Below, in pieces: positions 1 to 21,645 of a stretch of DNA of 21,645 nt. Position 1 is the stretch's first letter; each line of letters begins with the position of its first letter. The translations under genes and the position numbers were made by a program. The notes under the pieces are model-generated. The model saw nothing but the letters and a program-made list of their open reading frames with translations, was not told the DNA's origin and made no database searches. Origin of the DNA: a virus. Where the stretch lies: positions 1 to 21,645 of the IMG/VR virus record IMGVR_UViG_3300010883_008427, one strand, 5' to 3'.

Positions 1-666
1 GGTGCTGTTTTGATTATTGATTCTATATCCTCATTACTACCAAAAAAGGAGCTCGACGGTGACTTCAGTATCGGGAGAGCTGGCTTACCTAAAATCCTTT
101 CTATCTTTACCAAGAAGGTGGGACAGCTTTTACCTAGCCAACATGGGTTGATCATTGCTATAACCCACTATATTGCGAATACTGGCGGGTTCGGTAAAGC
201 TAAAATGTCCGACGGTGGAAATAAAATACAGTATCAGGCTGACACAAGGATGGAAATTAGTGGTGGAGGAGAAAAGGTTTCTGCCGTAGCTCCTTGGACC
301 AGCACTTCCGGAGATAGAATTGGTCAAGTCGTTAACTGGAAAATTATCTGTTCCTCGATGGGGCCGCCGGGAAGATCTGTACAAAGCTACCTCCGCTACG
401 GTCATGGAATAGATAAGACGCAAGAGATATTAATGCTATCCTGCGACCTAGGCTTAATAGACAAGGCGGGTGCTTGGTTCAATTGTACCTTCATGAGCCT
501 TTTTAAAGATTTGGCTAAAGAGATCAAGCCTGATTTAGATGTGGAGAACGAAGAAGATCTCAATAAAGCTTTTAAATTTCAAGGACAAGATAATCTGTAC
601 ACTTTTCTATCAGAAAATCCAAAGACCGTTGACATCCTTGAATCGTCAATAAGAGGTATGTTATAA
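1..666 (+). CDS. recA: RecA-family recombinase, C-terminal part (5' end outside window)
   Basis: Strand-exchange ATPase for homologous recombination and recombination-dependent replication. The frame is open from base 1, so the gene begins upstream; the TTG at 10 is not a true start. The first residues, GAVLIIDSISSLLPK, match the RecA Walker B strand (hydrophobic run, then D, S). Next comes IIAITHYIANTGGFGKAKM, where RecA carries its N-Q-I/loop L2 segment, then GGNKIQYQAD, equivalent to the GGNALKFYAS strand. KAGAWF near residue 156 equals the KAGAWY landmark at the end of the RecA core. A roughly 60-residue acidic C-terminal extension ends in ENPKTVDILES, as in RecA tails. The Walker A region lies outside the window. 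It is closer to bacterial RecA than to T4 UvsX by the KAGAWF block. It is followed after 13 bases by a small membrane protein gene. Confidence 0.85.
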   Translation, partial: GAVLIIDSISSLLPKKELDGDFSIGRAGLPKILSIFTKKVGQLLPSQHGLIIAITHYIANTGGFGKAKMSDGGNKIQYQADTRMEISGGGEKVSAVAPWTSTSGDRIGQVVNWKIICSSMGPPGRSVQSYLRYGHGIDKTQEILMLSCDLGLIDKAGAWFNCTFMSLFKDLAKEIKPDLDVENEEDLNKAFKFQGQDNLYTFLSENPKTVDILESSIRGML

Positions 667-7657: not shown

Positions 7658-8567
7658 GATAATAGCATTTGCCGGAACCAAACAATCTGGCAAAAGTACA
7701 TGTTGCAATTTTTTACATGGATATCAAATGAAGTGTTATGGTATTGTTGATGATTTTGGACTAACAAAGCAAGGGCAGTTAGTGGTCCAGACTGATGTTA
7801 TCGACGAAGAAGGGGTGACAGAAAAAGCAGATGCCACAATTGATATCAACCGTATGGATATGGACTTTGCTGAGTGGGCAATGTACAGTATGTGGCCCTT
7901 TGTGAAAAAGTACTCTTTTGCCGGATCATTGAAGTCAATAGCAATGAGTTTCTTTGGACTCAAATACAATCAAGTATACGGAACAGAAGCAGAAAAAACA
8001 CAGATAATCCCTCATTTACGATGGGAAAATATGCCCGGAATTATCACAGACAGGAAATTAGCGTCCTCTAGAGATGTAAAAAAATTAATTTCCGAAGGTC
8101 ACTTGATGTATCACAAAAAAGGACCAATGTCCTCTAGAGCATTTTTACAGTTCTTTGGTACAGATATTATGCGAAAAATATACGAGCCCATTTGGGTTGA
8201 AGTGTGTATTGCCGACATAAAGAGAGAAGAGCCGTTGTTGGCCATTATAGACGACTGTAGATTTGGAAACGAGATAGAAGCCATACAGGCAGAAGGAGGA
8301 AAGGTGATAGGTCTTACTAGACATACTGATTCAGACTCTCATGAGAGTGAGCAAAGCATTAAGAAAAACTGGGACTCCTTGGATACTGTTATCGATAACG
8401 TAGAAAAAGATATTTCTGATACCAATGTGGAAATTTTTAAGCTATTGGATTCATGGGGATGGTTAGGAAGCCCTCTAGATTCAGAGGAAATGCCCTTCCC
8501 TAAGGAAGAGAAGACGGAAGACGATAAAGTAGGCTTACATACCATAAGAAAGGTGGCCACTAAATGA
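7650..8567 (+). CDS. deoxynucleoside monophosphate kinase (T4 gp1-like)
   Basis: Phosphorylates dNMPs to dNDPs to feed phage DNA synthesis. Walker A is GTKQSGKST (residues 9-17) directly after a hydrophobic first strand. SFAGSLKSIAMSFFGL with VYGTEAEKT, RAFLQFFGTDIMR and LLAIIDDCRFGNEIEAIQAEGGKVIGLTR are the ordered blocks of the phage dNMP kinase family. The D-x-R in DDCRFGNE is the usual lid/substrate region. At 305 residues it is longer than T4 gp1 (about 240). Two extra parts are visible: an insertion near residues 27-75 and an acidic C-terminal tail after SWGWLGSP. It overlaps the primase gene by 8 bases; AAGGGA precedes the start. In phages with modified bases this kinase often has relaxed substrate range, but no base-modifying synthase is seen here. 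Confidence 0.85.
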   Translation: MTKIIAFAGTKQSGKSTCCNFLHGYQMKCYGIVDDFGLTKQGQLVVQTDVIDEEGVTEKADATIDINRMDMDFAEWAMYSMWPFVKKYSFAGSLKSIAMSFFGLKYNQVYGTEAEKTQIIPHLRWENMPGIITDRKLASSRDVKKLISEGHLMYHKKGPMSSRAFLQFFGTDIMRKIYEPIWVEVCIADIKREEPLLAIIDDCRFGNEIEAIQAEGGKVIGLTRHTDSDSHESEQSIKKNWDSLDTVIDNVEKDISDTNVEIFKLLDSWGWLGSPLDSEEMPFPKEEKTEDDKVGLHTIRKVATK

Positions 8568-9586
8568 TAGTAACATACATTAGAAGTTCCTCATACAATA
8601 ACTACGACTACTGCCAAATGCAGTATTTTATAACCTACGCCCTAGGACACAGATCGGGATCTGGTAAAAAGGCTCAACTAGGTACTGTCGTCCATAAGGT
8701 TATGGAGTGTTTAGCGTCTTGTAAAAAGAAGCTACAAGACAATCCTGATAAAAAAAGCCTATACATAAATGATGATGCGATAGGCAAGGTTAACTTTACA
8801 CCTAAGAGCCTGTTTACAAAAACGTTCGTAAACAAAGTATTAGATAGAAGTTACGCACATTATACAGAAAGCTGCACACATAAATATACTGGTGCAGATA
8901 TTAAGTTCTGTAGGAAGTCAACAGAAGACGGACTAGACTATAATGACGGACAATTTGATCCTCGTAAGAGGAATGTAGTAGACACGGAGCCTCAATTTGA
9001 CATTACTATAGATGAACCGTGGGCGAAGTTTAAATACAAGATGCCCGATGGAAAAGAAGTCGAAGGACAACTAGCCATCAAGGGAACAATAGATCTCGTT
9101 ACTGAGGTTGATGAAAAGATTATAGAAGTTATAGACTGGAAGACGGGAAGAAGACTGAACTGGGCAACAGGAGAAGAAAAAACCTACGAAAAACTACTAG
9201 AAGATCCGCAGTTGCTGTTATATAACTATGCTATATCTAAGCTGTATCCTAATTACGATCAGTCAATCATGACTATTTTCTACACTAGGGATGGCGGCCC
9301 ATTCAGTATGTGCTTCGATGAGCTGGATCGAGAAAAATTTCTAGAGATGTTAAAAAAGAGAGTCAAGCAAATACAAAGGAATGACTTTCCTCAGTTATGC
9401 TCTAGGAACAGAACTCATTTTAAGTGTACGAAACTCTGTCACTTCTACAAGAACAACTGGCCCGGAACAAACACGTCTATGTGTGAGCATGTAGAGGAAC
9501 ATTTAAAAGCCTTTGGACATGATGAAACCGTAGCCATGTGCACTAAAGAGGGATTCAATGTCGGCTACTACGAGGCACCGGGATGA
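8564..9586 (+). CDS. Cas4/RecB-like PD-(D/E)XK exonuclease with Fe-S cluster cysteines
   Basis: Predicted single-strand DNA exonuclease of the RecB/Cas4 nuclease group (340 residues). Motifs in order: N-terminal Cys in NYDYCQMQY (C17), GTVVHKVME (H44), GTIDLV (D177), EVIDWKTG (D191, K193) and DPQLLLYNYAI (the Q-x-x-x-Y helix). The C-terminus has Cys at 279, 288, 292 and 307 (HFKCTKLCHFY...SMCEH). One N-terminal plus three C-terminal Cys is the 4Fe-4S pattern of Cas4 and AddB. No cas gene or repeat array is nearby, so a role in phage recombination or host DNA breakdown is more likely than adaptation. It starts with an ATGA overlap with the kinase gene and overlaps the next gene by 4 bases. Confidence 0.87.
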   Translation: MIVTYIRSSSYNNYDYCQMQYFITYALGHRSGSGKKAQLGTVVHKVMECLASCKKKLQDNPDKKSLYINDDAIGKVNFTPKSLFTKTFVNKVLDRSYAHYTESCTHKYTGADIKFCRKSTEDGLDYNDGQFDPRKRNVVDTEPQFDITIDEPWAKFKYKMPDGKEVEGQLAIKGTIDLVTEVDEKIIEVIDWKTGRRLNWATGEEKTYEKLLEDPQLLLYNYAISKLYPNYDQSIMTIFYTRDGGPFSMCFDELDREKFLEMLKKRVKQIQRNDFPQLCSRNRTHFKCTKLCHFYKNNWPGTNTSMCEHVEEHLKAFGHDETVAMCTKEGFNVGYYEAPG

Positions 9587-10071
9587 TTGAAGTTGAAATT
9601 ACAGAGGATATGAAAAAGAGAGCTTGGCGTAAAGCTAGGACAATGGGCGAGTTAAATAATTCGATTACAGAGGGTGATGGAAATATTGCAGGTTTTTTAG
9701 GAGAAGAGGTTGCAAATCAGATTATATGTGGTATAATAAATAACACATACGATTACGACATCATCAGTAAAAAACAAAAACCTATAACTTGGGACGTTAA
9801 AACCAAGCGTTGCACTAGTCCTCCTAGAGGTTATTATGACTGCTCCGTAGCCGCTTATAACACTAAGCAAAAATGTGATCGATATGTTTTTGTCAGGGTT
9901 GAATATAAAAATAAGCGATGGGGAAAAGCTTGGGTACTTGGGTATTACGACAAAGATAAGTACTTCAAAGATGCTAGGTTTTTGAAAAAGGGTAGTCTTG
10001 ATGGTGATAATCGTTTTAAAGTAAAGGCAGATTGTTATAACATTGCTATAAAAGATTTAAAAAGAATATGA
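9583..10071 (+). CDS. PD-(D/E)XK nuclease-like protein, hypothetical
   Basis: A 162-residue protein conserved-looking but without a firm name. A nuclease-like arrangement is visible: NIAGFLGEEVANQII (E41), YDYDII (D59) and ITWDVKTKR (D71-x-K73), followed by CSVAAYNTKQKCDRYVFVRVEY, a helix-strand pair with Gln and Lys as in PD-(D/E)XK enzymes. The C-terminal part, GKAWVLGYYDKDKYFKDARFL, is a beta-rich tail. It overlaps the Cas4-like gene by 4 bases and the methyltransferase by 4 bases, in an ATGA-type chain. The position next to another PD-(D/E)XK enzyme and before the polymerase suggests DNA processing. An alternative is a non-catalytic restriction-fold protein; no experiment or search supports either. 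Confidence 0.6.
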   Translation: MIEVEITEDMKKRAWRKARTMGELNNSITEGDGNIAGFLGEEVANQIICGIINNTYDYDIISKKQKPITWDVKTKRCTSPPRGYYDCSVAAYNTKQKCDRYVFVRVEYKNKRWGKAWVLGYYDKDKYFKDARFLKKGSLDGDNRFKVKADCYNIAIKDLKRI

Positions 10072-10709
10072 TAAAAAGAACCCATAAAGAATATATCCGC
10101 AATCTACTAAAAGAAAATCCCCAGTGGAATGTATTAGATTTAGGTTGCGGAAGATTTGCTTGGGAAGAGGCACAAACCCTTTCTGATCTTGTAGACCACT
10201 CGGAGCTGTATCCGCAAAAGAGGTTTGTTAAGTGTGACGCCTCTAAGACCCCTTTCAAAGATAAAGAGTTTGATTTTGTGATTGCTAGTCATATCACAGA
10301 GCATGTCCGAAGTCTTGATGTGTTTTTAAACGAACTGTCAAGAATTTCAAAATGTGGATATATAGAGGTTCCCCTTCCGCTATTCGATAACCTGACTTAC
10401 GGAAACAAATATGACCACATTTGGTGGGTAGGCTTTGACGATGTTGCAAACGAAATGACTTTCATTCCCAAGGTGCAGCTTATCCAAGAGAGGATTATGC
10501 CCGAAGAGCTTCCTCCTATTGAAAAGTTTTTTAGAAGCAGTATGGCATTGGAAGTGTATTGGAAAGACAGTGTTGCATGGAGAATAGGAAGTCTTCCGGC
10601 TACCCTTGATCCCGATCTAACATACGATGTTTGGCCTGAGCCGCATTCTAGTTATTACAAGACTCAAGATAAAACAGGGCAACAAAACGTTATTAGGAAA
10701 AAAAGATGA
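10068..10709 (+). CDS. SAM-dependent class I methyltransferase
   Basis: A 213-residue methyltransferase with a Rossmann fold. Motif I is NVLDLGCGR (residues 21-29). The later block FDFVIASHITEHV is the motif IV/post-IV strand and helix of the methyltransferase type-11 group, and ISKCGYIEVPLP is strand 5. The C-terminal half (DHIWWVGFDDV onward) is not recognised and probably shapes the substrate site. There is no DPPY or PC motif, so it does not look like an adenine or cytosine DNA methylase; members of this group methylate small molecules, lipids or sugars. It sits between nuclease genes and the polymerase, overlapping both neighbours by 4 bases. It could work with the downstream sugar transferases, but that is inference. 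Confidence 0.8.
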   Translation: MIKRTHKEYIRNLLKENPQWNVLDLGCGRFAWEEAQTLSDLVDHSELYPQKRFVKCDASKTPFKDKEFDFVIASHITEHVRSLDVFLNELSRISKCGYIEVPLPLFDNLTYGNKYDHIWWVGFDDVANEMTFIPKVQLIQERIMPEELPPIEKFFRSSMALEVYWKDSVAWRIGSLPATLDPDLTYDVWPEPHSSYYKTQDKTGQQNVIRKKR

Positions 10710-12298
10710 AGTTAAATTGGATACCATTAAATTGTAAAACACATTATAGCTTGCAGAAAGCTTTTTGTAGAAATAACCTACTGGCCAAAAAATGTACAGA
10801 ATATGGTTACACCTCTTGTGGAATAGCGGATCTCGGAACATTGTCTGGCACTGTTGATTTTCACCAGCAATGTAGAGCAAACGGTGTAAAGCCAATTATC
10901 GGATGTGATTTTGACGGCTACATACTCTATGCTAAAAATAAAGCTGGCTGGATTGACTTGATTAGATATGTTTCAAATCAAAGCCTAGACATACTAAAAG
11001 ATGTTGCCCAAAAGGGGAATCTAATTTGTGTCACTCCGGACGCTAATGGTTTTGCGAAGCTTTTTAAATCAAACCATTTTCAATACGATTATGAGGCAGA
11101 TAAGGTTTTATACGTTTCACAAGATGAGGCAGACTGTCATCGTATTATGCTATGTGCCGGAATGAAGACGACCTTGAAAAAGGTATATGCTATGCTCAAG
11201 GGAAATAAAGAAGTTGACAATCAAGAGTATTTTGAAAAAGATAGCTTCTATCTACCAGAGCCACAAGATAAAGATAACTCAGAGATAGTCAACAAGATTG
11301 CGGACTTATGCGAAGAGTATGAGGTGGCAGAAAAGCCCATGCTCCCAGCCTTTAAGTGTCCCCAAGGAATAGATGAAGATGAATATGTTACTAGCCTCTG
11401 TAGAGAAGGGTGGCGTGCCAAGCTAATACCCGCAAATAAAGTAGAATCAGAAGAAGATAAAAAGAAATATGCAGATAGAATCAGACGTGAATTACAGGTT
11501 ATATTTAAAGCTGGGTTATCTGGTTACTTTTTGATTGTTCAGGATATTATCAGCCACGTTAAAGAACAAGGCTGGCTCGCTGGGCCCGGAAGAGGATCAG
11601 CCGCTGGCTGTCTAGTGTCTTATCTCTTAGATATAACAGGAGTAGACCCTATTGAATATGACTTAATTTTTGAGAGATTTTATAATGAAGGTAGAAATAC
11701 TGACGACTATGTGTCACTACCTGATATCGACATGGATATTCCGTCAGAACATAGGGATGAAGTAATAGATTACATTAAGGAAAAGTACGGCCATGAAAAT
11801 GTCGCACAAATGATTACATTTGGTAGGCTACAAGGACGTGCCGCGTTAAAAGAGGTACTTAGAATCAATGACGCTGTGCCATTTTCCGAAATGAACACTA
11901 TAACTGATAGTATTCCCGACGAGGCAAGAATTTCTGACCAACTTGAACTAATGGAAGATAAGTCTATTATCAAATGGACTCTAGAAAATGAGCCTGACGA
12001 TTTAAAGAACTGGTGCATCATGGATGATGACGGTGTTTTAGTTGGTCCTCTGGCACATCTGTTCGAGCAGGCAATCAAAATCGAGGGAACAAACAAATCA
12101 CAAGGAAAACATCCCGCAGGAGTTATCATATCTAAACATAGATTGGCAGAAGTATGTCCCATGACTAAGGATAAGTCCGGAGATACTGTAGCTGCTTTTG
12201 ATATGGGAGATATGGAAACGCAAGGCCACGTAAAGTTCGATGTATTAGGTATTGACCTACTGTCTAAAATAATGGAGATATCAAGTAATGATAATTAA
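10706..12298 (+). CDS. dnaE: DNA polymerase III alpha-type polymerase, N-terminal piece (PHP + palm + thumb)
   Basis: First half of a split C-family replicative polymerase (530 residues). Residues 1-200 match the PHP domain, with YSLQKAF, ADLGTLSGTVDFH and GVKPIIGCDF, but the metal-binding HxH is replaced by NCKTH, so the PHP site is probably inactive. The palm starts with the FKAGLSGYFLIVQDI block, then GPGRGSAAGCLVSY and FERFYN. LPDIDMDI holds catalytic D340 and D342. GKHPAGVIIS and AAFDMGDME lie in the thumb and return to the palm. VKFDVLGI supplies the third aspartate, D512. The protein stops 18 residues later, where Escherichia coli DnaE enters the fingers domain. The remaining domains are encoded at 13193-14770. 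No intein sequence is visible at the end. The last 11 bases overlap the next gene. Confidence 0.93.
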   Translation: MKLNWIPLNCKTHYSLQKAFCRNNLLAKKCTEYGYTSCGIADLGTLSGTVDFHQQCRANGVKPIIGCDFDGYILYAKNKAGWIDLIRYVSNQSLDILKDVAQKGNLICVTPDANGFAKLFKSNHFQYDYEADKVLYVSQDEADCHRIMLCAGMKTTLKKVYAMLKGNKEVDNQEYFEKDSFYLPEPQDKDNSEIVNKIADLCEEYEVAEKPMLPAFKCPQGIDEDEYVTSLCREGWRAKLIPANKVESEEDKKKYADRIRRELQVIFKAGLSGYFLIVQDIISHVKEQGWLAGPGRGSAAGCLVSYLLDITGVDPIEYDLIFERFYNEGRNTDDYVSLPDIDMDIPSEHRDEVIDYIKEKYGHENVAQMITFGRLQGRAALKEVLRINDAVPFSEMNTITDSIPDEARISDQLELMEDKSIIKWTLENEPDDLKNWCIMDDDGVLVGPLAHLFEQAIKIEGTNKSQGKHPAGVIISKHRLAEVCPMTKDKSGDTVAAFDMGDMETQGHVKFDVLGIDLLSKIMEISSNDN

Positions 12299-12515
12299 GG
12301 CGACGAAACAAGAATACAAGTCAGTAATCTTCTCTGGCTGCATGATAGAAACCAGTGGTGTATCTATCTGTAATTTAGAAGATGTCCTCAATACAAGGGT
12401 AGGAGTTCCAAGGGCTAAATATCAGGTGTGGTCAGACGGACATAGGTTTCACCAGCTTTATTTTAGTATAGACGAGGCAATTGAAAAATTTATAGAATTA
12501 AAAAATAGGAGATAG
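12288..12515 (+). CDS. 75-residue unknown protein between the two dnaE halves
   Basis: I do not recognise this protein. It is 75 residues, starts at ATG 12288 inside the last codons of the N-terminal polymerase gene (11-base overlap) and stops one base before the exonuclease ATG. It appears to be a small beta-rich fold ending in an amphipathic helix: the last third, YQVWSDGHRFHQLYFSI followed by DEAIEKFIELKNRR, is strand-strand-helix. There is no intein block, HNH or LAGLIDADG motif, so it is not a remnant of the common elements that split polymerase genes. Base composition and codon use resemble its neighbours. Its place in the operon makes it a candidate polymerase accessory protein, which is a guess from position. 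Confidence 0.65.
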   Translation: MIIKATKQEYKSVIFSGCMIETSGVSICNLEDVLNTRVGVPRAKYQVWSDGHRFHQLYFSIDEAIEKFIELKNRR

Positions 12516-12516
12516 T

Positions 12517-13203
12517 ATGAATTATCGTGATATTATTGTTTTTGACTTTGAAACAGGTGGTAGAAACCCACACAAGTGCCAGCCTACGCAAATTGCAGCA
12601 GTAGCAATTCACGCTAGAAAACTGACACTTCAGCCCGGAGGGACATTTAACAGTGAAATGCGTCCCATTCTGAACGACGACAAGGCTATAGCCGCTGGAT
12701 TTGATCCGGTTGAAGACGAAGCGTTAGATATAACCAGAAAAACAAGAGCAGCATTAGCAAAAGCACCGCTCCCAAAAACAGTCTGGAAAAAGTTTGCACA
12801 GTTCTGTGACAAATACAACTTCAAGAAGACTGGCTGGACTGCCCCTATTGCAGCTGGATATAATATCAATGGCTACGATATGCCTATCGTTGAGAGAATG
12901 TGTCAAATGTACGGGCCTATTGACGAAAAAAGAGGCAGACAAAAGCTGTTCAATCCTATATTCACAATGGACTTGATGCAACATATCTACTGTTGGTTTG
13001 AAGACAACGCCGACGTTAAAGGATATAGTATGGACTACATGCGGGATTATTTTGGTATGCCAAAAGACAACGCTCATGACGCCCTACAAGACGTAAAAGA
13101 TACTGCCAATATCCTAATCAAATTTCTAAAAATGCAAAGAAACCTTTCTAAAAAAATCAAATTTGAAAAGACCTTTTCTAGTGGTGATTTGTATGTCGTT
13201 TGA
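12517..13203 (+). CDS. DEDDh 3'-5' proofreading exonuclease (DnaQ-like)
   Basis: A 228-residue exonuclease of the DnaQ superfamily. Exo I is IIVFDFETGG (D10, E12). Exo II is NINGYDMPIVERM (D121). Exo III is NAHDALQDVKDTANI (H187, D192), the HxxxxD of the DEDDh type. This is a complete catalytic set. AGGAG about seven bases before the ATG is a good ribosome site. The gene lies exactly between the two halves of the polymerase and overlaps the second half by 11 bases. The phage polymerase has a degenerate PHP domain, so this enzyme is the obvious proofreader. The C-terminus (FLKMQRNLSKKIKFEKTF) is basic and could contact the polymerase, but no clamp-binding motif is visible. A repair role is possible but less likely given the location. 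Confidence 0.92.
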   Translation: MNYRDIIVFDFETGGRNPHKCQPTQIAAVAIHARKLTLQPGGTFNSEMRPILNDDKAIAAGFDPVEDEALDITRKTRAALAKAPLPKTVWKKFAQFCDKYNFKKTGWTAPIAAGYNINGYDMPIVERMCQMYGPIDEKRGRQKLFNPIFTMDLMQHIYCWFEDNADVKGYSMDYMRDYFGMPKDNAHDALQDVKDTANILIKFLKMQRNLSKKIKFEKTFSSGDLYVV

Positions 13204-14770
13204 TATTAATAACTTTGATGACTCTAAGGTGTGGGACCTCATCTGCAACGGTGAAACTAAGGGTGTGTTTCAGCTAGAGTCAAGCTTGGGAAAACATTGG
13301 TCCAAGGAAGTTAGACCAAGGAATATTAAAGAACTAGCGGCCCTTATTAGTCTTATTCGTCCCGGTTGCCTAAAAGCTAAAGACGCGAATGGCAATAGCA
13401 TGACACAGGTTTATGCTGACCGGAAGGCGGGTAAGCCGAACAGTCCTGTTGAATATCTTCATGAATCGTTAAAGCCTATCCTTCGGGAAACCTATGGTGT
13501 TCTTGTATACCAAGAGCAGTCCATGATGATAGCACAAAAGCTTGCTGGCTTTGACCTAAAGGAGGCTGACGGCCTGCGTAAGGCCATCGGTAAAAAGAAG
13601 GCAGACTTAATGGAAGAAGTTAAAAAGGCCTTCCTGATAGGAACCAAGAGGATGAGCATTGTAACACAAGAAGTTGCAGAAGAGCTCTTCTCTTGGATCG
13701 AAAAGTCAAACAGGTATGCTTTCAATAAGTCTCACGCCGTATCATACGCGATTAATGCTTACTGGTCTGCTTATTGCAAAACGTATCGAACTATAAAGTT
13801 TTACGAAAAATATCTAGGGCGATCAGATAAAAAACCCAAGCCAGATATTGAGAAAAAACAACTCATCGTAGATGCTAAAAGGTTTGATATAGATGTGCTA
13901 CCTCCGAGATTGAGGCATCTATATACTGAATTCACTCGTTGCACAGAGACAAATACAATACACTTTGGTCTGAGACATATAAAGAATGTGGGGGCAAAAG
14001 AGTGTGACAAAATTATAGACCTAATATCAAGAGAAGATATCTCTGGCTATTGCTGGATGGATTGTCTTGTAAAGATCATTTATGGATTAAATCTTAACAA
14101 GAGAAGTGTAATATCTTTAATTTCAGTCGGTGCGTTTAGCGGTGTAAATAACTCAGTCAGTAGACAAAAGATGCTCTACGAGTTCGATAGCTGGAAACAA
14201 CTTTCACCAAGAGAGCAAAAGGGCATCGCAGATAATCATAACAGTGAGGAACCTTCTCTTTATGCAGAGGAGTTGGCAGATTCTATAGACCATCTCGTTG
14301 GTACGATTAAAATCAACTCTAGAAGACTACCTATCGTAGAGGACATACGCGGCTCACTAAGGAATCCGTTTTATGATCTGGAAGACAGAACCCTATCGAT
14401 AGCCTCTGATGAAGAGAAATATATGAGCTGTTCATTAACTTGTAGTAAAATAGATGGAATTGACCTAAATGTAGCTACTTATATGTGCAAAGAGATAGGT
14501 AATGGGGCTATAACAGGTAAAGCAAACTTGGCGGCAGAAATTGTCTCAGTTAGAACCTATAAAACTAAACGTGGTAAAAATCCGGGCCAGACAATGGCCT
14601 TCTTGTGTGTTGAAGATGGCAGTGGCTCTTTAGATTCAGTCACCGTCTTTCCCGAGTGTTACGAAAAGCATAAAAATCTGCTAGTTGAGAGTAACACGGT
14701 TTTAATGATTGGCGAGATTTCCAAGAAAGATAGTGCTTCCCTGATAGTTAACCAACTATCTCAAATTTGA
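13193..14770 (+). CDS. dnaE: DNA polymerase III alpha-type polymerase, C-terminal piece (fingers + HhH + OB)
   Basis: Second half of the split C-family polymerase (525 residues). It opens with FDDSKVWDLICNGETKGVFQLESS (key block KGVFQLES, residues 23-30), the first conserved part of the fingers. Then come LAALISLIRPGCL, TYGVLVYQEQSMMIAQKLAGF, ADGLRKAIGKKK and RYAFNKSHAVSYAINAYW. FGLRHIKNVG and the LNKRSVISLISVGAF block form the helix-hairpin-helix region. An OB domain ends the protein (VRTYKTKRGKNPGQTMAFLCVED). There is no tau-binding C-terminal domain and no obvious clamp motif. I chose ATG 13193 (MSFDINNF); a TTG at 13163 is in frame but would add ten residues inside the exonuclease gene. 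The two halves together, 1055 residues, cover the family up to the OB fold. Confidence 0.93.
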   Translation: MSFDINNFDDSKVWDLICNGETKGVFQLESSLGKHWSKEVRPRNIKELAALISLIRPGCLKAKDANGNSMTQVYADRKAGKPNSPVEYLHESLKPILRETYGVLVYQEQSMMIAQKLAGFDLKEADGLRKAIGKKKADLMEEVKKAFLIGTKRMSIVTQEVAEELFSWIEKSNRYAFNKSHAVSYAINAYWSAYCKTYRTIKFYEKYLGRSDKKPKPDIEKKQLIVDAKRFDIDVLPPRLRHLYTEFTRCTETNTIHFGLRHIKNVGAKECDKIIDLISREDISGYCWMDCLVKIIYGLNLNKRSVISLISVGAFSGVNNSVSRQKMLYEFDSWKQLSPREQKGIADNHNSEEPSLYAEELADSIDHLVGTIKINSRRLPIVEDIRGSLRNPFYDLEDRTLSIASDEEKYMSCSLTCSKIDGIDLNVATYMCKEIGNGAITGKANLAAEIVSVRTYKTKRGKNPGQTMAFLCVEDGSGSLDSVTVFPECYEKHKNLLVESNTVLMIGEISKKDSASLIVNQLSQI

Positions 14771-14786
14771 TTTTAAGGATATACAT

Positions 14787-15098
14787 GTGAATAAATGTCA
14801 TTTCGTAGGTAAGCTAACTTCAGAACCAGAAGTTGAAAAAGAAGGCGGAACTCCGGTTATACGGTTTGAACTAGAAGTAGAGGAGTTTAGAAAAGATAAA
14901 GGCGGAGATAAAAAAAGATCTGTTGTCTATCTAGATTTTGAAGCTTGGGACAGTGCAGCAACCGCTATAGAAAGATACGCTCAACAAGATTCCATTATGG
15001 TCGTCGAGGCTATAGCTCGGGTTGATAACGATGTGACCGACGATGATGATTGTCCATACGTTTATTTCAGGGTAACGAGCTTTAAGATAATAACATAA
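14787..15098 (+). CDS. ssb: single-stranded DNA-binding protein, short, no acidic tail
   Basis: Covers single-stranded DNA at the fork. The 103 residues form one OB fold with the SSB signature: NKCHFVGKLTSEPEV, VIRFELEVEEF, RSVVYLDFEAWDSAATAIERYAQQDSIMVVEAIARV and PYVYFRVTSFKII. The conserved W and the G-K-L-T-x-E/D-P start are present. The usual SSB tail of about 60 flexible residues ending in D-D-I-P-F is absent, so it may not recruit host repair proteins as bacterial SSB does. The start is GTG 14787; an ATG at 14785 runs into a stop at once. AAGGA about eight bases upstream supports the GTG. It directly follows the second polymerase half (16-base gap), in keeping with a replisome operon. 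Confidence 0.88.
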   Translation: MNKCHFVGKLTSEPEVEKEGGTPVIRFELEVEEFRKDKGGDKKRSVVYLDFEAWDSAATAIERYAQQDSIMVVEAIARVDNDVTDDDDCPYVYFRVTSFKIIT

Positions 15099-15099
15099 T

Positions 15100-16749
15100 A
15101 TGAGAAAAAAAAGAATACTATTTGTATCTGAGGCATCTTGGAAAAACACAGGATACTCTGTTTATACGAAAGAGGTACTCACAAGACTGAACCAAGTGGA
15201 CAACTTAGAGGTTGCTGAATTAGCTTGCTATGCACCGCCGGAAGCGTCTGAGATCCAATCTTCACCTTGGAAGGTTTTCCCGAATAGACCCGCTACGGAT
15301 TCTCCTGATTTTGATCGGTATAAAGGTCGCCCAACTTCAATTTTTGGGGAGTGGAGCTTTAATAGAGTATGTCTAGAGTTCTTGCCGGACGTAGTTATGG
15401 ATATTAGGGACTGGTGGATGATGGAGTTTGAGCAAAGATCCCCCTTCAGGGACTTATTCCATTGGGCTATAATGCCCACGGTGGACGCTACTCCGCAAAA
15501 CTCACAATGGATGAATACCTATAGGTCTGCTGACGCTGTTCTTGCTTACTCTGAATTTGGCAGAGATACTATGCTACAACAGTGTGACAATTTGAATTTT
15601 GTAGATATAGCTTCGCCAGCTGCTAGTGACCGCTTTTTTCCTATAGACGACAAGAAGGCTCACCGGGATTCAATGGGGATAAGTGAAGATTCCTTTATAA
15701 TTGGAACGGTTATGCGTAACCAGAGAAGGAAGCTTTATCCAGATTTATTTAAGTCCTTTAGAGACCTTTTAGATAAAACAAAAGACGGCAATCTGTTTTT
15801 ACTTTGCCACACTTATTATCCGGACATTGGTTGGGATATTCCTACTCTATTGAATCATTTTGGCTTAAATAACAGGGTCTTATTCTCTTATAGATGTAAG
15901 TCTTGTGGTCATATAGACGTTGACTTTTTTAAGGACTCCGTGAGCTTCTGCGATAAATGTAATACCTTTCAACGACAGTTGGTTGGTATAGACAATGCTA
16001 TTGATGAAACAGAACTTAATAAAATATATAATCTATTCGACATATATGTACAGTACGCAAATAGCGAAGGGTTTGGTATGCCTCAACTAGAGGCCGCTTA
16101 TGCCGGACTACCAGTGGTCGCAACGGACTATTCCGCTATGGAGTCGGTCATTAAAAACATAGATGGTTATCCGATTAAGCCCATAGAGATGACACTAGAA
16201 GCAGAAACAGGATGTTATAGGGCCGTGCCGGATAATGGTCGTTTTGTAGAGCTGATGGCGGAACTCATACAAGACAAAGAAATGCTGAGAAAGAAAGGCC
16301 TAGAAACTGCCGAGATAGCGAGAGAAAAATATAACTGGGATAATACCGCTAATGTCTGGCTCAAACATATTCAGTCAGTTCCATTAAAAGATATGAGTGA
16401 AACTTGGCTTTCCCCCGTTAATATACTAGAGCCCGCCACTAGTATACCGCCAGAAAAAGAAGACCTGATAGACAAAATCGACTTTCTATTTACTCACATT
16501 TTACATAAGCCACAATGGATAGGAAGTTATTTATGGTCTAAGGTATTAAAAGACTGCACCTATAATTACAGGCTTCATAATTCCGATCAGGATTTCTATT
16601 TTAACGAATCGCATATTCAGGGCATGGATAGATATGAGTCCTTTAACATAGATAAGGCCGTAGAAGAACTGTCTAGATTTAGACATCAAATGAATGACTG
16701 GGAAAAGATGAGACTCCAGTGTATTCAATCAGGAGAGATAACAGAATGA
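15100..16749 (+). CDS. GT4-type glycosyltransferase with embedded zinc ribbon
   Basis: Retaining glycosyltransferase of the GT-B, GT4-like group (549 residues). The N-terminal domain begins RILFVSEASWKNTGYSVYTKEV. The C-terminal domain contains GTVMRNQRRKLYPDL and the E-x7-E donor motif ANSEGFGMPQLEAAYAGLPVV (E323, E331). An unusual insertion between them is a four-cysteine ribbon: YRCKSCGH (C266, C269) and FCDKCN (C284, C287), inside the second domain just before LVGIDNAID. After residue 430 a tail of about 110 residues (from KDMSETWLSPVNI to the end) matches nothing I know. No signal peptide or membrane span is seen. It starts two bases after the SSB gene and overlaps the next by 4 bases. 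Donor and acceptor are unknown. Confidence 0.85.
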   Translation: MRKKRILFVSEASWKNTGYSVYTKEVLTRLNQVDNLEVAELACYAPPEASEIQSSPWKVFPNRPATDSPDFDRYKGRPTSIFGEWSFNRVCLEFLPDVVMDIRDWWMMEFEQRSPFRDLFHWAIMPTVDATPQNSQWMNTYRSADAVLAYSEFGRDTMLQQCDNLNFVDIASPAASDRFFPIDDKKAHRDSMGISEDSFIIGTVMRNQRRKLYPDLFKSFRDLLDKTKDGNLFLLCHTYYPDIGWDIPTLLNHFGLNNRVLFSYRCKSCGHIDVDFFKDSVSFCDKCNTFQRQLVGIDNAIDETELNKIYNLFDIYVQYANSEGFGMPQLEAAYAGLPVVATDYSAMESVIKNIDGYPIKPIEMTLEAETGCYRAVPDNGRFVELMAELIQDKEMLRKKGLETAEIAREKYNWDNTANVWLKHIQSVPLKDMSETWLSPVNILEPATSIPPEKEDLIDKIDFLFTHILHKPQWIGSYLWSKVLKDCTYNYRLHNSDQDFYFNESHIQGMDRYESFNIDKAVEELSRFRHQMNDWEKMRLQCIQSGEITE

Positions 16750-17624
16750 TATCTTTTATAATTCAAGGTCCAACAAACCACAAAATGGGTTTTCCTACCT
16801 TCAGTAATGGTGAATGGCAAGATCATTACTTCACCACTCAGGAATGTATAGATTCTCTGAAGAAATGGTACCCAGACTCAGAGATTATCGTTTCCTGCAC
16901 GACTGGCGACGCTGATGATCTGGTGGATGTTGATCAACTATTTTATATTACTGACGACATGCTGGAATTTCCGGATAATGTTAACAGACAAATATTGTCA
17001 AGTCAGGTTGTAAAGCATGCAAGCCATGATATAGTATGTAAAATACGAAGTGATATGATTGCTGGTACCGGGTGGCTTATAACATACGTAACCAACGAGC
17101 TACTGGGAAAAAGACCATACGCCAGAATCGAAACTCATAAGATGTTTGAAAGATTCGTATTTACGTCTAACTGGAGTAGTGAATCCGGATTCCTTTATCA
17201 CCCGTCTGACTGGTTATTTTTAGGCTTAAAGACAGACATTGAAAGTATCTTCGATATACCGCAAAGACTACATACCGACTGGCCCATTGGTCCCGAGCAA
17301 TATATAACCGTTAGATGTATGGAGAACCACGGACTCCAAAAATACATAGATTACAACTGGATTGAAAATCACGGAAATAGAGATAGCCATATAGGCAAGA
17401 TGGTTCCGCCAGAAGACCACTATAGTGCCGATTGGTGGCGTGTGTTTTTTAATAATTTTTGCGTCTTGGATAACGGATGGACTACAAACGATCTTCAAAC
17501 CGCACCAGAGACGGAGGGGCAAAGTGGGCTAATGTCTCAAAAATATCTAGAAAGAGTCGGCCCCTACAGAACACTAGTCAATCACAGGCAGTGGCTCGCT
17601 GGACATAAAAAGGTAACTTCATGA
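16746..17624 (+). CDS. WavE-like lipopolysaccharide synthesis protein
   Basis: Putative sugar transferase of the WavE type, named from a Vibrio lipopolysaccharide-core gene. The opening MISFIIQGPTNHKMG is the family's first strand; then TTQECIDSLKKWYPDSEIIVS, FPDNVNRQILSSQVVKHA and HDIVCKIRSDMI (the aspartate block equivalent to a DxD) follow in the usual order. Later parts include SSESGFLYHPSDWLFLGLKTDIE and a PEQYITVRCMENH helix. I use ATG 16746 (ATGA overlap with the previous stop), giving 292 residues. A start at 16719 would add nine residues inside the previous gene and is less likely. GGAGAG precedes the ATG. It sits between two GT4 genes with 4-base overlaps on both sides, so it is probably part of one glycan-building set. 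Confidence 0.78.
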   Translation: MISFIIQGPTNHKMGFPTFSNGEWQDHYFTTQECIDSLKKWYPDSEIIVSCTTGDADDLVDVDQLFYITDDMLEFPDNVNRQILSSQVVKHASHDIVCKIRSDMIAGTGWLITYVTNELLGKRPYARIETHKMFERFVFTSNWSSESGFLYHPSDWLFLGLKTDIESIFDIPQRLHTDWPIGPEQYITVRCMENHGLQKYIDYNWIENHGNRDSHIGKMVPPEDHYSADWWRVFFNNFCVLDNGWTTNDLQTAPETEGQSGLMSQKYLERVGPYRTLVNHRQWLAGHKKVTS

Positions 17625-18715
17625 AAGTACTATATATAGGTAACTATAGAGACGGCACAGGGTGGTCTAACGCTGGTATCAATAACATATTGGCTATGGA
17701 TGCTGCCGGTATAGACGTGGTGCCTAGAGCTATCAGTTTTGAGACTCAGGATAAAAACTATTCAGATAAAGTCAAGTCATTAGAAATTAAACATAGGTCA
17801 CGCAGTAGTAATCTTGACTGCGATGTTGTTGTGCAGCACACGCTACCTCATCTGTATTGTTACGATTCAAATTATAAAAACATAGGATTTTTAGCAGTTG
17901 AGTCTTATGACTTCATTAGCACTAATTGGCAAAAATCGATAAACCTAATGGACGAACTATGGGTTCCGAATCCGCAGTCAAAAGAGTCCGCGATTAGAAG
18001 TGGCGTGAATGTTCCCATCAAGGTTGTTCCTCACTCTTTAGACATGGATGCATATAAAAACACAGAAGGACAAAAGGTGCAGGAGCTTCAGAATACTTTT
18101 ACTTTTGGTTTTGTTGGGGAATTTGTAGAGAGAAAAAATCTGAAAGCCTTAATCAAAGCGTTTCACATGGAGTTTGACCCCAAGGAGCCGGTGACACTTC
18201 TGATAAAGACATCTAAAGTAGAAATGCCAGAACTAGAGGCTTACTGTAGCACCATAAAGCGTGGGCTTAAGATGAGGAGTCAGTATAGTACTGAGGTAGT
18301 AATTTCTGGCATCATGGATAAACAAGATTACATATCTATATTGAGCCAAGTAAACTGTTTTGCAATGCCTAGCCGTGGAGAGGCGTTTTGTATTCCTGCA
18401 CTAGAAGCTATGGCGTTAGGTATACCTTCTATATACACAGACGGTATAGGTATGGATTACTGCATAGGGACGCCTGTAGAATCTAGATTAGAGCCGTGCT
18501 TCGGAACCGTAGACACGCTTCCTGATTTAGACACATCCGATACGATGTGGAGAGAAATAAATGTCATGAAATTACGCGAAGCAATGCGTGATATGTATAA
18601 CAACTTTAAGTCGGGAGACATCCAAGAGATTGGAACGTCTTGCCTATCGAGATCAAAAGACTACAACCATAAGACCGTAGGGGAAAAAATTAAGGAGATA
18701 TTGAATGACGGCTAA
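17621..18715 (+). CDS. GT4-family glycosyltransferase
   Basis: A 364-residue GT-B fold sugar transferase. The N-terminal domain starts KVLYIGNYRDGTGWSNAGI and has VVQHTLPHLY and GFLAVESYD. The second domain has FTFGFVGEFVERKNLKALI, the standard GT4 linker entry, and the donor motif SRGEAFCIPALEAMALGIPSI with E254 and E262 in the E-x7-E spacing. The C-terminus is short and closes over the N-domain, as in the family. AAAGG lies before the ATG. It overlaps the WavE-like gene by 4 bases and the next transferase by 11. No transmembrane segment is seen, so it should act in the cytoplasm on nucleotide-sugar donors. Acceptor could be DNA, protein or lipid-linked sugar. Confidence 0.88.
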   Translation: MKVLYIGNYRDGTGWSNAGINNILAMDAAGIDVVPRAISFETQDKNYSDKVKSLEIKHRSRSSNLDCDVVVQHTLPHLYCYDSNYKNIGFLAVESYDFISTNWQKSINLMDELWVPNPQSKESAIRSGVNVPIKVVPHSLDMDAYKNTEGQKVQELQNTFTFGFVGEFVERKNLKALIKAFHMEFDPKEPVTLLIKTSKVEMPELEAYCSTIKRGLKMRSQYSTEVVISGIMDKQDYISILSQVNCFAMPSRGEAFCIPALEAMALGIPSIYTDGIGMDYCIGTPVESRLEPCFGTVDTLPDLDTSDTMWREINVMKLREAMRDMYNNFKSGDIQEIGTSCLSRSKDYNHKTVGEKIKEILNDG

Positions 18716-19748
18716 CGCATCTAAAAGATCAATCAGATCCTTAATGAGAAAAGTAAACGATAAAGATAAGTTAAATATCTTGACGTTTGCCACTCACGAG
18801 AGATATGAGCACAACCTCTGTAGAACGGGGCATAATTTTTACTCACTTAGAATCGGCAAGGAATGGGATACTGACTATGCACCCGTTCCAAGCAACTACC
18901 ATATTATCGACTCCCTGCCAGAATTTGTGGATTTTGATTTAGTCCTTAGTCACACTAGTTGTTCTCGGCTTCAAATAGCACATGATATGCTATCCAGAAC
19001 GGTAGAGTCTCCCGTTAATAAAATAAGCGTTCCGATAATTAGACACTGTCACGTACTTCCTGATATAAGGTTTGACATTAATGCAGAAGTTTCTAATTTT
19101 AAATCTATATTGACAGACTGCAATTCCTTTATATCTGATTTCAATAGGGACGCATGGGGATGCAAAGAGGATGAAAGTGCAGAGGTTATAAAGCATGGTG
19201 TCGATACGGATTTCTGGAAACCAGACGATACCGTTGAACGAGATAATGTTTGTTTATCTGTGGTCAACGATTGGCCAAATAGAGATTGGTGCTGCGGATT
19301 TAACTTATGGAAGCAGACAGCACACGATCTACCCTTGAGGGTTTTTGGTAAAAGTCCCGGTCTTTCAAAAGCCGCTAAAGATACAGAAGAATTAAGACAA
19401 ATATATCAACAGTCGAGAATTTTTTATAATACATCACTCCATTCCCCCGTGCCAACAGTGATGCTAGAGGCTATGGCTTGCGGATGTGCCATCGTGTCAA
19501 CTAACACATGTATGATACCGGAAATCATTAAACATGGCCATAACGGGCTTATCTCAGATAATCCTAGTGAGCTAAGGTCATATTTAGAGATGTTACTTAA
19601 TAATCCGCATATGGCAAAAACACTCGGGCAAAACGCTAGAAAAACCATAGAAGATGAATACAACTTAAACAAGTTTACCACCGGCTGGAATAAGCTTTTT
19701 TATGATACGATTGAAAATTATACAGATGTAATAATAGAGGGACAATAA
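18705..19748 (+). CDS. GT4-like glycosyltransferase lacking first donor glutamate
   Basis: A 347-residue GT-B type transferase. The N-terminus is basic (KRSIRSLMRKV), then KLNILTFATHERYEHNLC starts the first domain. VPIIRHCHVLPDIRFD and DCNSFISDFN follow. AEVIKHGVDTDFWKP is the linker region. The donor block reads NTSLHSPVPTVMLEAMACGCAIV: the second glutamate of E-x7-E is present but the first is a serine. GHNGLISDNPSELRSYLEMLL and ARKTIEDEYNLNKFTTGW are ordinary GT4 tail blocks. Variants of this kind are known in other glycan clusters, so activity is still possible. AAGGAGA at 18692-18698 is the ribosome site. It overlaps the previous gene by 11 bases and the next by one base (TAATG). Confidence 0.85.
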   Translation: MTANASKRSIRSLMRKVNDKDKLNILTFATHERYEHNLCRTGHNFYSLRIGKEWDTDYAPVPSNYHIIDSLPEFVDFDLVLSHTSCSRLQIAHDMLSRTVESPVNKISVPIIRHCHVLPDIRFDINAEVSNFKSILTDCNSFISDFNRDAWGCKEDESAEVIKHGVDTDFWKPDDTVERDNVCLSVVNDWPNRDWCCGFNLWKQTAHDLPLRVFGKSPGLSKAAKDTEELRQIYQQSRIFYNTSLHSPVPTVMLEAMACGCAIVSTNTCMIPEIIKHGHNGLISDNPSELRSYLEMLLNNPHMAKTLGQNARKTIEDEYNLNKFTTGWNKLFYDTIENYTDVIIEGQ

Positions 19749-20170
19749 TGAGAGTACATTTAGGGTACGTCGAGATAGACGATCAGAACTATAGACAGTT
19801 TCAAAATATTGCGTTATTTTCTAGAGAGATACTGGACACGGAAGCGAATGAAATCGTGTGTGATGGTTTCTTAGGAGGGTTTAACGCCACAGAATTACAG
19901 CAGGTTCTAGGCATTATCTGCAAAAAGATTAGACTGAACGGAGAGTTAGTGATAAAAGATATAGACATCGATCTCGTGGCGAAGAATCTAAATAGACAAG
20001 AGATGTCAGTAGCGGATATGAACAGCCATGTATTCAAATCAAGATCCTTAAAATCCTTTCTGACGCTAGAAGATGTTGAGCGGATTATCCCCGATGATTT
20101 TCAGGTCAGTAGTAAAGGGTTTGATGAGAATATGTGTGAATTTATTATCAAGGCAAGGAGATTCAAATGA
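19748..20170 (+). CDS. truncated methyltransferase-like protein
   Basis: A 140-residue protein. The segment NEIVCDGFLGGFNATELQQVLGIICKKIRLNGELVIKDID has the pattern of the late half of a class I methyltransferase: strand 4 with a post-strand helix, then the turn L-N-G-E-L and strand 5. The glycine-rich SAM motif I is absent, and the first 30 residues (VHLGYVEIDDQNYRQF) are too short to supply it. The end RIIPDDFQVSSKGFDENMCEFIIKARR matches strands 6-7. It may be a non-catalytic partner of another enzyme or a decayed gene, but the frame is intact. Good coupling (TAATG) to the preceding transferase and AAGGAG before the next gene suggest it is expressed. Confidence 0.55.
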   Translation: MRVHLGYVEIDDQNYRQFQNIALFSREILDTEANEIVCDGFLGGFNATELQQVLGIICKKIRLNGELVIKDIDIDLVAKNLNRQEMSVADMNSHVFKSRSLKSFLTLEDVERIIPDDFQVSSKGFDENMCEFIIKARRFK

Positions 20171-20964
20171 GCCAAGTCAAAACAGAATGTAGTAACTGCG
20201 TATTCGCACTAATGAGTAAAGACCACCAAAGCGGATGTTCTCTTAATAGGGATGAAGTATTTAAGATCACAGACACCACGGAAGACAATTTCTATATATT
20301 GGATAGATTCTGCAATACATATAGGCCAGAAGAATGGATTCAGAATCTAGATCTAGAAGAGCAAATGGATATAGAGACGGCTGCACTTAATGAGGTTCGT
20401 CCTCGAATGGGGGTTTTTATACGACTAGACACCGCCGTTCCGAACGCTATAGAAAGACTCGACGAGACGATGGAGAGTCTGACTAAAATTAATGGAGACG
20501 TACCTTATGTGGCCGTTATTACAGATAAGGTTGAATACAACGAGGAAATATGGGGAATTTTTATCAAATATCTCGGAGAGGATAGCGATACACTATACCA
20601 TATTGTGCAATTAGAACGAGAGATTGTTGATTTTTCAAGAGTCATAGACGAAGCCTTCACACATGCACAGAACGGCTGGATTTATGTTACAACCTCTGGA
20701 GAGACCGTGCATAAAGACACCTTGGATATTTTACACAAACGTCTCAATATAGAGCTTGCACAGTTGATGATGGTGGAACCTTATGACGGATTTAATGGAC
20801 TAATGTTTCCCGCGTTTGTCTTTAAGTTTCTAAACGGGAACAAAACAAAGATGTTTCAAAATGAGGAAACCTCTTCACTATCCTTCATAGATAAGTTGAG
20901 GGAAGCAGATAAAAGAACCGATAAGAAGTCAATACTTACATGGGAGGAATTTTATGCTTCCTAA
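20167..20964 (+). CDS. Cys-cluster protein with possible degenerate GT-A domain
   Basis: A 265-residue protein I cannot name. The first 55 residues hold four cysteines: ECSNCVF (C8, C11), SGCSLNR (C24) and DRFCNTYRPEEW (C49), a plausible zinc or Fe-S site. From residue 80 the pattern resembles the start of a GT-A transferase: MGVFIRLDTAVPNAIERLDETMESL (strand then helix), DVPYVAVITDKVEYNEE (strand) and NGWIYVTTSGETVHKDTLD in the place of the DxD strand, but no DxD is present. AAGGAG at 20155-20160 is a good ribosome site. It overlaps the methyltransferase-like gene by 4 bases and the GT2 gene by 11. The location suggests a partner or scaffold for the adjacent GT2 enzyme, which is inference. 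Confidence 0.55.
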   Translation: MSQVKTECSNCVFALMSKDHQSGCSLNRDEVFKITDTTEDNFYILDRFCNTYRPEEWIQNLDLEEQMDIETAALNEVRPRMGVFIRLDTAVPNAIERLDETMESLTKINGDVPYVAVITDKVEYNEEIWGIFIKYLGEDSDTLYHIVQLEREIVDFSRVIDEAFTHAQNGWIYVTTSGETVHKDTLDILHKRLNIELAQLMMVEPYDGFNGLMFPAFVFKFLNGNKTKMFQNEETSSLSFIDKLREADKRTDKKSILTWEEFYAS

Positions 20965-21645
20965 AGTAGCAATTATATGTGCTAACTATAACTATAGTAA
21001 TTACGTCATTGAAGCTATAAAGAGTATAGAGGAACAGACATACAAAGGAGAGATCCGTATCTATGTTGTAGACGATGGGTCAACAGATGACTCTTGGTCC
21101 AAGCTAACAGGACATAATGATGGTACCGATAGACATCAGTTTCAAAGAATAGAAAACTCTGGGGCTAGTGTGGCTAGAAATACAGCCATAGCAGCAGCTT
21201 GGGATTGGGCAGATGTTTTTGGGATACTTGACTCTGACGATTCTTATTATCCGGAAAAAGTCGAGAAGCTCGTGAACAAGCTTGTCGTACACGAAGAAGT
21301 CGGAGCAGCATACGCAGACTATAAAAATGTGTTTCCCGACCATCAGAAAAGAGAGTTCAAGTACTCGTACAGTTTTCATGGATTAAAAAATAGATGTATG
21401 GTTCATAGTAACTCCCTAATCAAAAAGCAATATCTAGACGAAGTAAAACTACCTAACGGAGAGTTCTTTGATAGTAGACTACATGGCCCCGCAAGCCAAG
21501 GGTTCATAGGATGTACGGAAGATTATGACTTGTGGCTTAGGTTATCAAAAGTGTGTGTAATCACACACGTTCCTGAGTGTCTAGGTATAGCGAACCAACA
21601 TGGAAATAATCAATCCATGAAAATGACGACAGAAATATTCAATGA
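20954..21645 (+). CDS. GT2-family glycosyltransferase, N-terminal part (3' end outside window)
   Basis: The frame from ATG 20954 is open to the last base (230 codons), so the gene continues beyond the window. It is a GT-A fold enzyme: VAIICANYNYSNYVIEAIKSI (first strand and helix), YVVDDGSTDDSW (D40, D41), ENSGASVARNTAIAAA, GILDSDDSYYPEKV with DxD at D93-D95 and CTEDYDLWLRLS with E189-D190, the catalytic base block. These are all motifs expected of an inverting GT2 transferase. GGAGGA at 20942-20947 lies six bases before the ATG. It overlaps the Cys-cluster gene by 11 bases. The ending NQHGNNQSMK is the usual start of the last GT2 helix. Donor and acceptor are unknown. Confidence 0.9.
   Translation, partial: MLPKVAIICANYNYSNYVIEAIKSIEEQTYKGEIRIYVVDDGSTDDSWSKLTGHNDGTDRHQFQRIENSGASVARNTAIAAAWDWADVFGILDSDDSYYPEKVEKLVNKLVVHEEVGAAYADYKNVFPDHQKREFKYSYSFHGLKNRCMVHSNSLIKKQYLDEVKLPNGEFFDSRLHGPASQGFIGCTEDYDLWLRLSKVCVITHVPECLGIANQHGNNQSMKMTTEIFN

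Follow-up and report, generated by a model that had tools for sequence, protein, structure and literature searches.

The viral DNA analysed here (IMG/VR virus record IMGVR_UViG_3300010883_008427, the whole of which, 21,645 bases, we call the window) encodes a DNA polymerase of the DnaE type, or C family, in two separate genes, with a gene for a DEDDh 3'-5' exonuclease between them. Pol III alpha, the product of dnaE, serves as the chief replicase of bacteria, normally as one chain of roughly 120 kDa whose active site spans the palm and fingers domains; in the window the chain is broken at the joint between these domains. Judging from sequence, we consider it likely that the replicative polymerase of this phage is an obligate two-subunit DnaE that assembles non-covalently and is proofread by the exonuclease, and there is good inferential support for the non-covalent assembly of the two chains. 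The first chain (degenerate PHP, thumb and palm) would contribute the metal-binding aspartates and most of the site for the deoxynucleoside triphosphate (dNTP) and the primer, and the second (fingers, HhH and OB) the fingers that close on the nucleotide and the binding of template and single-stranded DNA. The two DnaE genes and the exonuclease gene would be co-transcribed and probably translationally coupled; the chains would fold separately and meet across the palm-fingers interface (we infer both their physical assembly and their activity), and the exonuclease, plausibly as a member of the complex, would supply proofreading.

The break itself is clear. An earlier note on this DNA had described two DnaE open reading frames (ORFs), a 75-residue ORF and an exonuclease, with all catalytic aspartates in the first DnaE piece and fingers, HhH and OB in the second; these coordinates and assignments are confirmed, and all four ORFs are on the plus strand (Table 1; Pfam, phmmer and Foldseek). 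Piece 1 matches the Pfam families PHP (PF02811, 3.2e-14) and DNA_pol3_alpha (PF07733, E=1.7e-72), and piece 2 matches DNA_pol3_finger (PF17657, 1.7e-42), HHH_6 (PF14579, 6e-9) and, just below the Pfam cut-off, the OB family PF01336 (3.5e-5). The equivalents of D401, D403 and D555 are encoded by codons 11723-11725, 11729-11731 and 12239-12241, all in piece 1. In phmmer alignments to E. coli Pol III alpha, piece 1 extends to residue 563 and piece 2 starts at residue 591, and the break falls at about residues 564-590 of the E. coli protein, where palm and fingers join. Piece 1 stops about 8 residues past VKFDVLGIDLLSKIM; its end (VKFDVLGIDLLSKIMEISSNDN) and the start of piece 2 (MSFDINNFDDSKVWDLICNGETKGVFQLES) jointly span the joint of single-chain enzymes, so that little or nothing appears to have been lost. 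The conserved block KGVFQLES does lie in a separate gene, as the earlier note had it, but position 13193, which it took for the start of that block, is the ATG of piece 2, and the block begins about 23 codons downstream. Piece 2 alone gives a confident AlphaFold2 fold (mean predicted local distance difference test score 88, predicted template modelling score 0.80), and in Foldseek this model matches Pol III alpha of M. tuberculosis, Thermus and E. coli (E=9.6e-21 to Pol III alpha). Of the features by which the C family is recognized, the palm with its aspartate triad, the fingers, HhH and OB regions, and the PHP are all present, and only the single polypeptide is missing.

Relatives were collected by scanning viral contigs with piece 2, the exonuclease, the palm of locus L063 and the fingers of locus L058, together with one genome scan, and the loci were profiled with hidden Markov models. 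All relatives are metagenomic sequences, and after removal of duplicates the family comprises 100 distinct members including the window, 99 of them split into two genes and one fused. A search for the same break and gene order in other phage sequences, as the earlier note had suggested, revealed the identical break with an exonuclease in the gap in a further 98 distinct loci, drawn from metagenomic viral contigs and from one contig of a SAR202 metagenome-assembled genome (MAG). Both the break and the gap exonuclease are found in all loci covering both sides except L063/L064 and the distant L203, and in most lineages the chain ends are kept within a few residues, at identities down to 34-41%.

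Both chains bear the marks of a working enzyme. The equivalents of R362, R390, R396, D401, D403, K553 and D555 are invariant in 100 of 100 members, and those of the fingers residues Q610, E612, Y686, Q687, R709, K714 and K715 are invariant or nearly so. Between the window and its relative L002 the proportion of differences is about 0.08 at nonsynonymous and about 0.8 at synonymous sites in both pieces (synonymous sites being saturated), which points to strong purifying selection on each. Across 83 loci palm and fingers distances are correlated (r=0.89; palm and C-terminal domain (CTD), 0.91), a correlation indicating that palm and fingers are co-inherited. Each of 18 related virus records (65-173 kb) has exactly one palm and one fingers region, the fingers region of L145 being in two fragments interrupted by an intein. 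The earlier claim that the two chains make up one polymerase is the best reading of the conserved break, the invariant residues in both chains, the single copy per genome, the distance correlation and a single-chain homologue described below.

The PHP domain that the earlier note had recognized in piece 1 does give a Pfam match, but it is degenerate: about 60 residues shorter than that of E. coli, it has NCKTH as its first motif in place of HxH, so that the PHP is unlikely to act as a nuclease, and a proofreader encoded separately would make sense. The product of the nested exonuclease gene matches PF00929 (4.6e-15), and its D10/E12, D121 and H187/D192, which supply the Exo I DxE, the Exo II aspartate and the Exo III HxAxxD, are invariant in 14 diverse relatives aligned. 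The 75-residue protein has a predicted alpha-beta-beta-beta-beta-alpha fold and matches no Pfam or PHROG family, its best PDB fold match having E=0.25. In most of the window's clade its gene is retained, flanked by piece 1 and the exonuclease; outside that clade it occurs only in L063/L157, and in deeper lineages the gap contains either the exonuclease by itself or other small genes. Overlaps of 11 nucleotides join piece 1 to the 75-residue gene and the exonuclease stop to the start of piece 2, and with starts and stops overlapping or almost touching, translation of these genes is probably coupled. Gene order and overlap make the earlier note's joint complex of both chains and the exonuclease plausible only, and in the L063/L064 lineage the exonuclease gene precedes a joined polymerase gene. 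From gene order, the 75-residue protein perhaps belongs to the complex too.

In L063 and L064 (the L064 contig is 158 kb long) palm and fingers form one ORF through the same joint (QVKFDILGVDILSKIDKIAKYANIDLDNWEDVETWRLLCEGDTRGVFQLES), with the 75-residue gene and the exonuclease upstream of it; L157 has the same upstream order, and its sequence stops before the joint. One lineage thus appears to do with a single chain what its relatives do with two, which is natural evidence that the two chains share one job. On a 96-taxon tree L063 is nested within the split clade, suggesting that its single chain is a re-fusion. Approximately unbiased (AU) tests reject monophyly of the split forms on fingers plus CTD (p=0.009-0.038 over four models) and do not reject it on the palm (0.36-0.50) or on concatenated data (0.21-0.44); given these mixed tests and the full-length, canonical PHP of L063, it is possible that the fused state is ancestral. 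As to how the split arose, a homing endonuclease may have entered an intact dnaE at the joint and been replaced by an exonuclease cassette before the two-gene state became fixed, an origin compatible with a two-subunit polymerase that we put forward tentatively, as somewhat short of an even chance. Endonuclease or endonuclease-like genes do persist in the gap of some relatives (Endonuclease_7 in L213, an HTH/NUMOD-type gene in L058 and an HTH-bearing ORF in L118), the same gene is targeted by inteins at two fingers sites, RPG|C and NK|SH, and T4-like phages offer split-gene precedents (PMC2988022). The window's gap, however, has no homing-endonuclease-type gene; the exonuclease is in the gap of all split loci, so that the cassette itself may be the original insertion; and the tree tests give mixed results on the ancestral state.

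An unlikely reading, though one deserving more weight than those that follow, is that the split genes are decaying or accessory, that the host replicase is used, and that the pieces have no function left or a changed one, working, for example, independently as a PHP/palm protein and as a DNA-binding HhH/OB protein. The shortened PHP without HxH would fit decay, but the invariance of the active-site residues over 100 distinct loci and the strong purifying selection on both pieces argue against it, as does the proximity of the pieces to helicase, primase, SSB and nuclease genes. Moreover, the split DnaE is the sole detectable replicative polymerase in the 18 related records, in which no PolA, PolB or sliding (beta) clamp was found and from which a second, intact dnaE, an outcome the earlier note had regarded as damaging to its proposal, is absent. 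A terminase profile matched in 17 of these 18 records, eight times over a long frame, some matches being short. Several points nevertheless weigh against a two-subunit phage replicase. All records are metagenomic and classed as linear and may be incomplete, so that another polymerase may lie outside the contigs; the phage could use the host replicase instead; and piece 2, whose last domain is the OB fold, has no counterpart of the tau-binding end of E. coli alpha, which bears on its coupling to clamp and loader.

That the pieces are covalently rejoined into one mature chain, by an intron or by protein trans-splicing with a split intein of the cyanobacterial type, is very improbable. Rfam found no intron family in the window, where the gap is fully coding and consists of conserved complete genes and not of non-coding RNA, and neither the window nor any of the 24 split relatives inspected has intein sequence at its chain ends. 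In nearly all loci inspected the chains end about 8 residues past the palm block and begin about 8-12 before GVFQLES, so that intein halves would not fit at the palm/fingers break. The rejoining element that would have undone the earlier note's proposal is therefore not seen at the break; its observation that RYAFNKSH is intact and free of any intein holds for the window (uninterrupted in piece 2, 13712-13735) but not for the relatives, some of which carry fingers inteins. Trans-splicing elements do exist in the family: a split intein occupies the fingers site NK|SH, which is 4 residues away from Y|CFNKSH, the site used in cyanobacteria, in six distinct loci (L050, L051, L063, L065, L118 and L145). 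The set has an N-intein ORF (with Hint and Intein_splicing matches for L050) and an ORF that opens with a C-intein ending ...SN|SH; L050, L063, L065 and L118 have in addition a separate ORF of about 300 residues, which for L050 and L063 matches a DUF559-like endonuclease in Pfam. The split intein region of L050 spans 8170-11026, and in L050 and L063 the two ORFs that carry intein parts are separated by the endonuclease, a free-standing DUF559/Vsr-like gene. Split members of this set would thus have a three-gene DnaE made into two chains by trans-splicing. Cis inteins are found at the second fingers site, RPG|C, in L153 (10322-12676, with an HNH match) and L145 (10473-12059), the latter carrying inteins at both sites. 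Finally, the earlier note had named assembly error as a danger. Although all records are metagenomic assemblies, a false joining of distant gene fragments during assembly or binning is ruled out for practical purposes, since the junctions recur, with overlapping start and stop codons, in about 100 distinct sequences that come from many samples and show 34-93% identity.

The split polymerase genes stand within a longer run of replication genes (Table 1). A 162-residue gene upstream (9583-10071) matches no Pfam or PHROG family, and its GFLGEE...TWDVKTKR pattern resembles a PD-(D/E)XK nuclease; relatives of this gene adjoin the DnaE genes in L063 and L156. A gene for a membrane-dipeptidase-like peptidase M19 (930-2159; Pfam 5.7e-50) adjoins the replication genes, and immediately 3' of the replication block (15100-21645) lie at least four glycosyltransferase genes and a WavE-like one.

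Table 1. Replication genes of the window, by position in the 21,645-base record.
Feature	Position	Strand	Remarks
RecA end	1-666		same strand as other replication genes
DnaB helicase	from 5179		same-strand replication run
Primase	from 6575		same-strand replication run
Deoxynucleoside monophosphate (dNMP) kinase	from 7650		same-strand replication run
PD-(D/E)XK nuclease	from 8564		same-strand replication run
DnaE piece 1, 530 aa	10706..12298	+	shortened PHP, thumb, palm, all three catalytic Asp
75-aa gene, function unassigned	12288..12515	+	without a Pfam, PHROG or confident PDB fold match
DEDDh 3'-5' exonuclease, 228 aa, likely proofreader	12517..13203	+	Pfam, PHROG, motif alignment
DnaE piece 2, 525 aa	13193..14770	+	fingers, tandem HhH, OB
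SSB	14787..15098	+	Pfam; after piece 2, order kept in most relatives

We also lean, with less assurance, towards a broader hypothesis: that a widespread uncultured lineage of tailed phages has as its standard polymerase an old obligate heterodimeric C-family replicase that includes a nested DEDDh subunit and perhaps the 75-residue protein. Under this hypothesis at least one branch would have preserved or re-created a single chain, some branches would need three genes and trans-splicing, and one host of the lineage may be SAR202 Chloroflexota. SAR202 as host is a lead only: it comes from a single relative, on a 152.7 kb contig that binning placed with a SAR202 (Chloroflexota) MAG, and binning errors are common for viral contigs. 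That MAG carries a dnaE palm of its own, in a 1071-residue open frame on a different contig. Two different contigs of this phage family, L007 and L140, belong to one IMG genome record (2825974508), which could identify a host. If the two-subunit polymerase is real, the palm-fingers interface of Pol III alpha can be non-covalent, and the natural pair of split and single-chain forms would allow a test of what the covalent link contributes. Separable modules would also become available for engineering a proofreading C-family polymerase, and polymerases in pieces would be seen to become fixed family-wide, not just to occur as sporadic accidents.

Compared with bacterial DnaE, the window's enzyme has the same PHP-thumb-palm-fingers-HhH-OB order and the same invariant catalytic and dNTP-contacting residues, whereas the bacterial enzyme is one chain with HxH in its PHP and a tau-binding end. 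Cyanobacterial dnaE is likewise in two genes, with a split intein at Y|CFNKSH; the break in the window is well upstream of that site, at the palm/fingers joint, and without an intein. Among the DnaE matches listed from annotated phages (the best 60 of about 1,300 records per query), all below 60% identity, dnaE is broken in Bacillus phage Jayan and Tenacibaculum phage Larrie, where two ORFs meet just before PDID; unlike in the window, that break is inside the palm and no exonuclease lies between the ORFs. With the list limited in this way, a rare annotated phage broken as the window is may have escaped notice. In L156 (4274-6264) the palm piece is broken again at this same site, with an insert between, and is followed by the relative of the 9583-10071 gene, not by the exonuclease. 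Among annotated phages in the collection the exonuclease has no close relative, with six matches at 25%; the sole annotated phages matched, Bacteroides phages SJC03/DAC at 25% identity, were rejected, the SJC03 region having no DnaE palm or fingers alongside. None of the PHROG families matching piece 2 starts at the fingers, and we found no palm/fingers break in phage dnaE described in the literature searched, in which subscription papers were mostly out of reach.

Closer parallels come from other phage replication enzymes. Aeromonas phage 25 has its PolB in two pieces, gp43A and gp43B, that are active and purify together, and the split NrdA of phage Aeh1 is active (PMC2988022); in gp43A/43B (Aeromonas phages 25 and 44RR) and in NrdA, as we propose for the window, an essential phage replication enzyme is made as two chains without splicing. 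The gp43 polymerase, however, is of another family; the gap gene of the window is for a proofreading-type exonuclease and not for a homing endonuclease; and, in contrast to these precedents, the break here is family-wide in the window's phage family. Group 2.2 jumbo phages also have Pol III alpha split into two proteins, a minimal catalytic core encoded by two distant genes and accompanied by PolB (Iyer et al. 2021, PMC7824862), whereas the window's enzyme is near full-length, with PHP, HhH and OB present and its genes adjacent, and no PolB is found in the 18 relatives. The break in DnaE is therefore different from those of the known split phage enzymes, yet it has precedents in gp43A/B, NrdA and the Pol III of jumbo phages.

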